From: Prolixibacteraceae bacterium
GTDB lineage: Bacteria; Bacteroidota; Bacteroidia; Bacteroidales; Prolixibacteraceae
NCBI GenBank assembly: GCA_016788685.1
Contig: JAEUSS010000520.1
Span: 1 to 16,425, forward strand
Direction: 5' to 3'
DNA: 16,425 nt
Each line of letters starts with the position of its first letter. The stretch's first letter is position 1. The position numbers and the translations under genes are program-made. This document shows, one piece after another, positions 6,747-12,887 of the stretch. The notes below the pieces were generated by a model. It did no database searches and was not told the DNA's origin. It saw only the letters and a list, made by a program, of their open reading frames with translations.

Positions 6747-6769
6747 GCGCAACACACGCGATATACCGG

Positions 6770-6802
6770 AAAGAGCGGCTCATGAGAGTCGCTCTTTTTT
6801 TT
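6770..6802 (+). terminator. Strong intrinsic terminator after the TPR lipoprotein
   Basis: A 12-bp stem (6770-6781 with 6786-6797, one G-T pair, loop ATGA) is followed by a T run to 6802. It begins 23 nt after the stop codon. Confidence 0.92.
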
Positions 6803-6931: not shown

Positions 6932-6973
6932 CTAACCAACAAAAGACTCCTTGCGGAGTCTTTTGTTGGTTAG
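6932..6973. terminator. Perfect 19-bp hairpin, possible bidirectional terminator
   Basis: Arms 6932-6950 and 6955-6973 pair without mismatch around a TTGC loop. The core AAAAGACTCC / GGAGTCTTTT has the A-tract, GC stem and T-tract of a terminator that reads on both strands, extended outward by nine more pairs. The left edge contains AGCTAAC. It does not directly follow a gene: the TPR gene already has its own terminator 150 nt upstream. Confidence 0.6.
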
Positions 6974-7001: not shown

Positions 7002-7232
7002 GGCTAAGTCTCTTTTTTAGGCGGCTAAGTTTCGGTTTTATTTAGCTATGTTTCGGTTTAGTGTGGCTATATTTCGGTTCAATGCGGCTAAGCGTCTGGA
7101 ATGAATAGCTAAGACCCGGAATGATGCAGCTAAACGCCGGTTTAGTCTGGCTATGAGTCTCGACAACATGGCTATGTTTCGTTTGGGTCTGGCTAAGTCC
7201 CGCGACCGTGCAGCTAAGAGCCGGAGGAGAGG
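7002..7232. repeat. Tandem array, eleven units of 21 nt
   Basis: Eleven units start exactly 21 nt apart (7002, 7023, 7044, 7065, 7086, 7107, 7128, 7149, 7170, 7191, 7212). Each begins RGCTAW followed by a purine (G in 9 of 11), so position 1 is a purine and positions 2-5 (GCTA) are invariant. Position 10 is always a pyrimidine, position 11 always C, 12-13 mostly GG, and position 18 always a purine. The remaining positions vary freely. The spacing has no indels. A lone AGCTATA plus TCGG at 7317 is in register (five periods after the last unit). No coding function is evident. Confidence 0.93.
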
Positions 7233-7438
7233 TGCGCAGGAATGTTCGTGCCCTAGCAGCAGCCAACGGCAACCGATAGGACTGCAAGCATGGAAGGGGA
7301 CGGTGCGGATCAGAGCAGCTATATCGGCTTCAGGAAAAACAAAAATCGAAAAACATGCGGCGATTGCAAGGTTGATGGGGGAGTTGGTTTGTACGGAGAA
7401 CGGAATTTCTGTTCCAGAGCTAAACCATGCAAGTGACC
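7233..7438. other. Non-coding stretch between the array and the lipoprotein cassette
   Basis: No supportable gene. A frame from 7153 to 7443 exists, but its first third is just the translated repeat array and the rest resembles no known protein. AGCTAA at 7418-7423 is the inverse of TTAGCT at 7440-7445, so a small inverted repeat sits at the left border of the lipoprotein module. Confidence 0.5.
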
Positions 7439-7453
7439 GTTAGCTTTAAGTGT
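7439..7453. repeat. Left arm of 15-bp inverted repeat around the small lipoprotein gene
   Basis: Read on the minus strand this is ACACTTAAAGCTAAC; the right arm (7928-7942, plus strand) is ACACCTAAAGCTAAC, a 14/15 match in inverted orientation. The left arm begins GTTAGCT, similar in shape to an integron core site (GTTRRRY) but not an exact match. Confidence 0.8.
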
Positions 7454-7927: not shown

Positions 7928-7942
7928 ACACCTAAAGCTAAC
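7928..7942. repeat. Right arm of 15-bp inverted repeat around the small lipoprotein gene
   Basis: ACACCTAAAGCTAAC pairs with 7439-7453 at 14 of 15 positions. It begins at the base after the TAA stop of the lipoprotein gene and its AGCTAAC end leads into the folded element that follows. Confidence 0.8.
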
Positions 7943-8053: not shown

Positions 8054-8584
8054 CTACTCGTTCAGTATCCGGCTGTACAGGGCATAGTTTTCCTCATCAA
8101 AACAAACAAAATAAACCCGGCTGATCTCCGGATTCGATGCCAGAAACCCGCTGACCGTTTGAATGGCTATTTCTGCGGCCCGTTCCTTCGGAAAGCCATA
8201 AACCCCGGTGCTGATGTTGGGAAAAGCAATGGTTTCGACTTCGTTTTTCAAAGCTAATTTCAGGGAGTTGAGATACGCGTTTGCGAGCAGTTGCTCTTCA
8301 TTACTGCTTCCCCCGCGCCAGATTGGACCAACGGTGTGAATCACCAGTTTCGCCGGAAGATTGCCTCCGGAGGTTATTACCGCCTCACCCGTGGCACAGC
8401 GTCCCTGCCGGGCAACAATTTCGCAGCATTCGTCCAGAATAACTGGTCCTCCGGCGCGGTGAATGGCTCCGTCGACCCCGCCACCGCCCATCAGCGACGA
8501 GTTGGCCGCATTCACCACGGCATCCACCTTAAGTTTGGTAATGTCGCCCTGAAGAAGAGTAATACGGGAGAAAGTTGTTTCCAT
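8054..8584 (-). CDS. Macrodomain protein, probable O-acetyl-ADP-ribose / ADP-ribose deacylase
   Basis: A stand-alone macrodomain of 176 residues (YmdB/MacroD-like) that binds ADP-ribose and is likely to hydrolyse O-acetyl-ADP-ribose or remove ADP-ribose from acidic side chains in the cytoplasm. Key signatures are [19 protein letters not shown] (residues 13-31) with the ribose-contacting Asn pair N25/N28, the glycine-rich [14 protein letters not shown] loop next to it, and the phosphate-binding loop [10 protein letters not shown] near residue 120. Length and motif order are complete. The gene is separated from the upstream VOC gene by a hairpin and is probably transcribed alone. No toxin-type ADP-ribosyltransferase is visible nearby. 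Confidence 0.95.
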
Positions 8585-11519: not shown

Positions 11520-12887
11520 ATGGAACACATTGAGAAATACATTACTGAAAACAAAGACCGCTTCCTGGAAGAATTGTTCGGACTGATCCGGATTCCGTCC
11601 ATCAGCTCGATTGCTGCCAACAAACCCGAAATGTACCGGGCTGCCGAGTACTGGAAACAAACCTTGCTGAATGCCGGTGCCGACCGCGCCGAAGTATATG
11701 AATCGGATGGCAATCCGGTAACCTACGGCGAAAAGATTATCGATCCGGCCAAACCAACGGTGCTCATTTATGCCCACATGGATGTGATGCCGGTAGATCC
11801 GTTGAACCTTTGGGATTCGCCGCCTTTCGAGCCTGAAATCCGCGACGGGAAGATCTGGGCCCGCGGTGCCAACGATGACAAAGGACAGAGTTTTATGCAC
11901 GCCAAAGCGTTCGAGCTGATGGTGAAAACCAACACCCTGCCCTGCAACGTCAAATTCATGATTGAAGGTGAAGAAGAAATTGGTTCGCCCAACCTGGGCA
12001 AATGGTGCGAACAGCACAAAGACATGCTGAAAGCCGACATTATCCTGGTTTCGGACACGTCGATGATTGCCCCGGATATGCCGTCGATCACCACCGGATT
12101 GCGCGGACTGGCCTACTGGCAGGTAGAAGTAACCGGCCCGAACAAAGATTTGCACTCCGGATTGTTTGGCGGAGCGGTGGCTAACCCGATTAACGTACTG
12201 GCTAAAATGATCGCCCAGATGACCGATGAAAACGGGCGCATCACCATCCCCGGATTTTACGACGACGTGGTGGAAGTTTCGGCCGAAGAGCGCGCGATGC
12301 TGGCCAAAGCGCCATTTGATCTCGAAAACTATAAAAAAGCGCTCGACATTGCGGAGGTTGCCGGAGAAGCAGGTTACTCGACCAACGAGCGCACCGGCAT
12401 CCGCCCAAGTTTTGATGTGTGCGGAATCTGGGGCGGCTACATGGGCGAAGGCGCCAAAACGGTGATGCCATCCAAGGCGTTTGCCAAAATATCGTGCCGG
12501 TTGGTACCAAACCAGGACCATAAAAAGATTGAGGTGCTGTTTAAAAAGCATTTCGAAAGCATTGCTCCCAATACTGTAAAAGTGGAAGTAACTTACCTCC
12601 ACGGCGGATACGGTTACGGTTGCCCGATTGACTTTCCACCCTACCAGGCAGCCGAAAAAGCCTACCTCGAGGTGTATGGCAAACGGCCGGTTCCGGTTCG
12701 CAGCGGCGGAAGTATCCCGATTATCTCCACCTTTGAGCAGGTGCTGGGCACCAAAACCATATTGATGGGCTTTGGCCTCGAATCAGACGCCATCCACTCG
12801 CCCAACGAAAACTTCCCGCTGGAACAATTCTTCAACGGAATCCGGACAATCCCGCTGTTTTACAAGTATTTTGCTGAGCTAAAATAA
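11520..12887 (+). CDS. M20-family dipeptidase (ArgE/DapE/CPG2-type)
   Basis: A 455-residue di-zinc exopeptidase, no signal peptide, so cytoplasmic, likely acting on dipeptides. Motifs: H86-M-D88 in YAHMDVMPVD, D119 in ARGANDDKGQ as bridging ligand, EGEEEIGS with catalytic E152 and ligand E153, an Asp in ILVSDTS, and the final ligand His in ESDAIHSPNENF near the C-terminus. A dimerisation (lid) domain lies between about residues 195 and 330 (DLHSGLFGG marks its start). Length is typical of the dipeptidase branch with inserted lid. The start ATG at 11520 is the first in frame. It ends 23 nt before a strong terminator. The exact dipeptide preference cannot be read from sequence. Confidence 0.95.
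   Translation: MEHIEKYITENKDRFLEELFGLIRIPSISSIAANKPEMYRAAEYWKQTLLNAGADRAEVYESDGNPVTYGEKIIDPAKPTVLIYAHMDVMPVDPLNLWDSPPFEPEIRDGKIWARGANDDKGQSFMHAKAFELMVKTNTLPCNVKFMIEGEEEIGSPNLGKWCEQHKDMLKADIILVSDTSMIAPDMPSITTGLRGLAYWQVEVTGPNKDLHSGLFGGAVANPINVLAKMIAQMTDENGRITIPGFYDDVVEVSAEERAMLAKAPFDLENYKKALDIAEVAGEAGYSTNERTGIRPSFDVCGIWGGYMGEGAKTVMPSKAFAKISCRLVPNQDHKKIEVLFKKHFESIAPNTVKVEVTYLHGGYGYGCPIDFPPYQAAEKAYLEVYGKRPVPVRSGGSIPIISTFEQVLGTKTILMGFGLESDAIHSPNENFPLEQFFNGIRTIPLFYKYFAELK

Follow-up and report, generated by a model that had tools for sequence, protein, structure and literature searches.

A 21-nt direct-repeat array in a Prolixibacteraceae genome, possibly an orphan member of an intergenic repeat class of Bacteroidales

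What is a tandem array of short, strongly diverged units doing between the genes of a Prolixibacteraceae genome? The stretch of DNA that we analyzed (16,425 nt; hereafter, the window) contains such an array (Table 1), which an earlier note described as eleven 21-nt units without indels, carrying an invariant GCTA and an invariant C11. Our unit-by-unit reading bears this description out. The units start at 7002, 7023 and so on to 7212, in an exact 21-nt step with no indels; GCTA at unit positions 2-5 and C at position 11 are present in 11 of 11 units, as are the claimed purines at positions 1 and 18 and pyrimidine at position 10, and position 6 is A or T in all eleven. Read on the minus strand, the core has the form (A/T)TAGC(C/T) in every unit. 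The units are otherwise diverged, with a mean pairwise identity of 0.55 (range 0.38-0.76); Tandem Repeats Finder returned only 4.4 copies for the array, and a gap-free repeat finder detected the 21/42-nt spacing. Elsewhere in the window, GCTA recurs at a 21-nt distance only once, as a two-member pair at 12180. Four units without the core separate the array from an isolated in-phase unit, which may be an older, decayed end of the array or may be there by chance.

Table 1. Features of the window around the 21-nt array.
Feature	Position	Strand	Remark
TPR protein gene, 584 aa	4992..6746	+	upstream of array; in 22 of 23 genus genomes (own included)
Terminator-like hairpin of TPR gene	6768-6799		terminator scan
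Perfect 19-bp hairpin, 4-nt loop	6932..6973	no strand	ends 28 nt before array; inverted-repeat search
Array of eleven 21-nt units, consensus GGCTAAGTTTCGGTTTAGTGT	7002..7232	+	GCTA (2-5) and C11 invariant
Isolated in-phase unit AGCTATATCGGCTTCAGGAAA, core AGCTATATCGG	7317..7337	+	15 periods after first unit
Lipoprotein-like reading frame, 128 aa	7541..7927	+	right of array
Macro-domain protein gene	8054..8584	-	PF01661, E 9.6e-49

The surroundings of the array vary within the genus. In the rows that we read, the genomes have different DNA behind the TPR gene; no array was seen behind this gene in the scanned congener loci, with a reach of 1.5 kb at most, and no orthologue of the window array was seen in the congeners searched. 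The 19-bp hairpin before the array is not on the list of the terminator scan, and it occupies the same place as terminator-like hairpins at several arrays that lie behind genes of a helical-protein family described below. No gene or remnant of that family was found in the 16.4-kb window with 27 family proteins as queries (best tblastn E 0.38). When its TAGC strand is taken as the reference, the array lies about 820 bp behind the macro-domain gene. The lipoprotein-like frame matched no Pfam or NCBIfam family above the cut-off; it is bracketed, in a cassette-like manner, by a 15-nt inverted repeat (93%; 7439-7453 and 7928-7942). A separate 24-nt tandem repeat at 1711-1790 encodes the DNRGGDRR tail at the C-terminus of the window's first gene.

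Relatives of the array were found within the genus. A relaxed pattern, GCTA-N17-GCTA-N17-GCTA, matched in 9 of 23 genus genomes (roughly 114 Mb) at 16 distinct places, some of them single or coding. Multi-unit arrays are present in the window's own genome (C285 and C281) and in G010 (C91, C102 and C35), G008 (C62), G014 (C558) and G004 (C264). These arrays have GCTA in common through the choice of search, and they do not share C11. The likeness in unit sequence is slight: one window unit, at 7086, and one of G008 agree at 17 of 21 positions, but in the columns other than GCTA only a weak resemblance of the window units to seven genus arrays was measured (p 0.05-0.64). A better likeness to arrays of other families (L327, p = 0.002 and 0.010; L323, 0.015; L324, 0.017) was discarded because the pattern that fetched those arrays also demanded YC at positions 10-11. 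No further copy of the window unit type was found in the window's own genome, a 654-contig assembly in which copies could be missed. A second 21-nt array of the same genome, GGCTATGATCGCTTGTCCGAT, is much fresher; it stands at two contig ends (G000:C285:19-375 and C281:5119-5244; L316 and L317) and is flanked on one side by a histidine kinase gene. What the sibling arrays keep is the period, 21 nt throughout or 20- and 21-nt units mixed (lags 41 and 62). This fits the proposal of the earlier note that 21 bp, two helical turns, would place every core on one face of the helix; cooperative binding is something that we, too, can only infer.

Some of the genus arrays lie beside genes of one protein family. 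Family genes adjoin the arrays of G010 C91 and G004 C264, where they are intact, and that of G008 C62, where the gene is broken; a family gene or remnant is thus within about 250 bp of 3 of the 16 GCTA places. We hold that this proximity is not due to chance, because by our own estimate the 12 non-core family genes take up very little of the roughly 114 Mb searched. In the genus, the fetched flanks of 9 of the 12 non-core family genes contain a 21-based array with a score of at least 0.57, against 0 of 18 core-type genes, with the two groups separated by our own reading and the score limits (0.54, 0.57 and 0.6) fixed after the scores were seen. One conserved, array-free member of the family, present in most genus genomes (G000:C117, L346, and its orthologues), is perhaps a housekeeping paralogue. 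The family protein has about 240 aa and is all-helical in its AlphaFold model (pLDDT 83, pTM 0.52); the nine members considered are not basic. Its fold gave no clear known match and contains no recognised domain, and comparison with known Rep, ParR and transposase families gave no match. Homologues were named from Prolixibacteraceae and Prolixibacter, plus one from Rhodocytophaga. At the sensitivity used, the family was not found on viral contigs, phages or plasmids (the last searched with one family protein).

The same association is seen at the level of the order. Our profile search of 393 order genomes had 56 matches to the family, spread over 26 genomes, and 30 loci were fetched. In 24 of these, one of them weak (L367), the strongest period in the flanks is 21, 42, 63, 41 or 62 nt. 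Wherever a close family member has an array, it is downstream (3') of the gene (20 of 20), and for remote members it is upstream (5'; 4 of 4); the window's own genome has a remote family gene with a third 21-nt array located 5' of it (G000:C23; L362, gene at 705-1418 and array at 1764-1890). By our own reading, gene and array are separated by a terminator-like hairpin at about 9 of 20 loci. Unit sequences differ strongly from locus to locus. Among in-phase trinucleotides, TAG ranks first on the gene-sense strand and occurs in at least half of the units in 8 of 18 arrays (20 arrays less L377 and L395, each of which has its orthologue in the set), and CTA ranks 30th of 64 on that strand. With array borders set by eye from autocorrelation peaks, here as in the coding, column and TAG tests, array similarity rises with protein identity, also across genera (Spearman 0.29, permutation p = 0.0005, 177 pairs). 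Close orthologues from different species share their array type, with similarities of 0.79-0.98 at 90-97% protein identity. Arrays can nevertheless change faster than the protein, because paralogues in the same genome carry unlike arrays: two G286 paralogues are 87% identical as proteins with an array similarity of only 0.45, and three other same-genome pairs have similarities of 0.26-0.41. An array can also outlive its gene. G007 and G008 have an array in common, of 5 units with a whole gene in the former and of 12 units in the latter, where the gene is frame-broken and carries a deletion. Arrays without a family gene occur at the C285/C281 ends of the window's own genome as well, where the contigs stop inside the array, and at the control loci described below.

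Based on these findings, we tentatively propose, with somewhat less than even confidence, that the window array belongs, as an orphan whose units have strongly diverged, to a class of 21-nt direct-repeat arrays between the genes of Bacteroidales chromosomes, and that its core would be a protein-contact site repeated along one face of the helix. The class itself is widespread in Bacteroidales, little described, and often placed just behind a small helical-protein gene. The window array has its characters: at least five spacer-free, intergenic direct units at 21 (or 20/21) nt, conserved core columns amid diverged units, and a TAG core on one strand, a trait that is not universal in the class; an adjoining gene for a helical protein of about 240 aa is missing. 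A row of protein contacts is to us the simplest account of the fixed period, the tolerance of 20/21 nt, the fixed core, the lack of a coding signal and the linkage to a gene. The protein would bind at the core, one molecule next to another on a single helix face, and the helical protein encoded beside other arrays is the leading candidate; the array of the window may have lost its family gene or may never have had one. The bound array could mark the locus, insulate genes or control a gene. The overall reading of the earlier note, an array that works at the DNA level with uneven columns and a two-turn period, is retained in this proposal. Two points lack support: we found nothing that points to its partition-like or silencing site, and the invariant C11 does not recur in the other genus arrays.

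The pairing of gene and array was at first seen as tight, and we have cut this view back. Around an unrelated peptidase gene, 21-type arrays were present in 6 of 17 flanks, all in genomes that carry the family, compared with 23 of 30 family loci (Fisher p = 0.011). A long frame contains one of these control arrays; the remaining five are again 3' of the gene, here the peptidase gene, so the 3' position is not special. We also took a census of 1.6 Mb from ten genomes, in which 27 of 31 tandem segments outside long frames are 21-based, mostly of 41-42 nt; two pairs of segments overlap, which leaves 29 arrays, 25 of them 21-based. One genome (G218, a single contig; L453-L472) has 15 21-type arrays in 400 kb, mostly of 41-42 nt, a single-contig genome of the window's genus (G011) has 1 in 400 kb, and four genomes have 0 in 100 kb. 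Since the peptidase control and the census show that 21-type arrays are common in some genomes, the claim of pairing is weakened. The census arrays are possibly a mixed lot, because a TAG core in at least half of the units is rare among them (3 of 24). A less stringent control, with 29 weak array matches and 20 TPR-gene loci (49 in all), was not clean: 8 loci were flagged, 3 of them at 0.57 or above, and we judged these three to be repeat-rich coding sequence (L022), low complexity (L005) and a short 21-nt repeat of 3-4 units (L204). Also on the negative side are the window's lack of a family gene, the unlike arrays of near-identical paralogues, the weak likeness of the window units to the genus arrays outside GCTA, and a family protein that is not basic and has no clear known fold.

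The main rival to a protein-contact array is a neutral minisatellite that, for some reason, favours 21 nt. Slippage in 21-nt steps would be favoured by replication or repair in Bacteroidales, arrays would arise from local sequence behind genes, where they are harmless, and the conserved columns would reflect unit phylogeny or the GCTA search. The abundance of 21-based arrays in intergenic DNA and near an unrelated gene suits this rival, as do the change by whole units between G007 and G008 and the different units of paralogues within one genome, even at 87% protein identity. The columns speak against it. Five invariant columns including a run of four were reached in 0 of 20,000 mismatch permutations (p 5e-5), and simulations of growth by tandem duplication followed by uniform drift down to the identity of the window array yielded both traits in 0 of 7094 runs; both statistics were picked after the array had been seen, and the margin is large. 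The observations thus support the conclusion that the conserved columns of the window are not a product of duplication and even drift, and they agree with the argument of the earlier note that a relic of slippage should be conserved evenly or randomly rather than in fixed columns. Column heterogeneity is significant for the window array (p = 0.004) and at p < 0.05 in 22 of 26 arrays; among arrays found through the gene search, where the GCTA search bias is absent except for L366, it is significant in 16 of 19. The earlier note had also suggested a column-wise check among orthologues, which was moved to a sibling array because an orthologue of the window array was not seen in the congeners searched. 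Between G323 and G242, the sibling array has kept 21 units with no indels, and its core columns differ at 3 of 105 sites compared with 40 of 336 in the remaining columns (p = 0.004), so the core is spared. Together with the recurrence of TAG on the gene-sense strand, these results lead us to regard a purely neutral origin as the less likely of the two.

A second alternative, which we consider distinctly less probable, is that the array is what remains of a MITE-type mobile element, non-autonomous and with a minisatellite inside, comparable to two elements of Porphyromonas gingivalis. BrickBuilt is described as a minisatellite/MITE that is always intergenic, with gap-free tandem units and frequent stops in translation; its 23-nt unit, AGAYCATARTATCCTCTCRTRTG, occurs in 19 non-identical copies in one genome, with a leader and a tail that have small inverted-repeat ends, and a terminator before the element is described for one copy (PMC4596501). 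MITE464/PgRS of the same species consists of 41-nt tandem repeats with repetitive flanks and, according to the same paper, has no matches outside the species (PMC4596501). These two appear to be the nearest known elements in kind. BrickBuilt resembles the window array in its occurrence in Bacteroidales, its intergenic place, its gap-free units of about two helical turns and its stops in translation, whereas it differs in unit sequence, ends and copy structure, and a protein partner is not mentioned in the portion of PMC4596501 that was available. PgRS shares its 41-nt period with several of our arrays. The intergenic place, the tandem units and the preceding terminator that the window has in common with BrickBuilt (PMC4596501), and the variable stretch behind the TPR gene among congeners, would fit a mobile element. 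However, terminal inverted repeats are missing around the array: between 6700 and 8100 our search for inverted repeats returned nothing but the 6932-6973 hairpin and one pair to the right of the array. The window unit type was found in one copy only in the genome, and the family gene has neither a transposase match nor, at the sensitivity used, a detected presence on plasmids, phages or viral contigs.

The array might instead be a decayed protein-coding repeat, since 7 codons make 21 nt. One minus-strand frame reads xxxRx(L/I)A in 11 of 11 units, its Arg is encoded by synonymous codons only (AGA 3, CGA 4, CGG 4), and its synonymous fraction of 0.52 is the highest among the six frames; moreover, two sibling arrays look coding (L395, p = 0.025; L397, p = 0.045). 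The signal of this frame is not significant, however (p = 0.109 by column permutations, with 2 stops), stops are present in all six frames of the window array, three siblings (L368, L373 and L377) have at least 3 stops in every frame, and 20- and 21-nt units are mixed in several arrays. A coding excess is absent in 27 of 29 arrays, the window array among them. We think a heptad origin unlikely, and the earlier claim of no coding role is likely to be correct; the suggestive xxxRx(L/I)A frame keeps it short of proof. About as improbable is a transcribed array working as RNA, a sponge or a 3' untranslated element, which would suit the 3' place of the arrays of close family genes and a TAG oriented with the gene, but which the terminator-like hairpins between gene and array speak against, as do the folds of the window array on either strand, not better than shuffles (z -1.39 and 0.59), and the lack of an Rfam match at the gathering score. 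The window array looks like an element that acts at the DNA level rather than as coding sequence or structured RNA.

A more far-reaching form of the protein-contact proposal, which we put forward as doubtful though possible, is that the arrays and the helical proteins of about 240 aa together make up an undescribed two-part chromosomal system. Each gene copy would have a private array behind a terminator, with sites of 20-21 nt on one helix face that track the protein lineage, and the protein would form a filament on them; arrays without a gene would be surviving or trans-acting sites. Direct repeats of about two helical turns that are bound by a protein encoded alongside are known from plasmid iterons and from ParR-parC. 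The arrays described here differ from them in being chromosomal and, in some genomes, numerous, and their neighbour protein has no Rep or ParR match. REP sequences with RAYT transposases are a chromosomally dispersed repeat class tied to one gene family; those repeats are palindromes, whereas ours are tandem direct repeats whose partner is all-helical and without a recognised domain. If such a system exists, a large bacterial order possesses repeats with a dedicated protein family, and similarity searches miss them because the fixed 21-nt helical period, and not sequence, reveals the arrays. It would also offer a testable protein-DNA pair, with a gene and its private array, orthologous arrays that spare the core, and a natural experiment in the broken gene, and it could explain the 41-, 23- and 22-nt minisatellites of P. 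gingivalis. Neither the membership in a class nor the placement beside helical-protein genes is visible from the sequence of the window alone.

Wider pattern scans contributed less. An exact search with a strict unit had no match in the genome collection. A pattern of four units matched 81 stretches in several phyla, many of them near-perfect repeats or inside long open frames, of which L221, L226, L230 and L263 were read unit by unit; L263 and G344 contig 52 (both 34,744, with an identical array) were counted as one record. Genome counts at the order level, from a sample of about 120 families, were not used because a reversed control pattern matched 17 genomes compared with 18 for the real one, and a scan of viral contigs was set aside with at least 120 stretches, which by our own estimate is near the chance number. 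Outside Bacteroidales, Saprospira grandis (L228, L239, L247, L254, L278 and L279) and the Oscillospiraceae genome Pcl387_bin59 contain many fresh 21-nt arrays with AGCTA-type cores.
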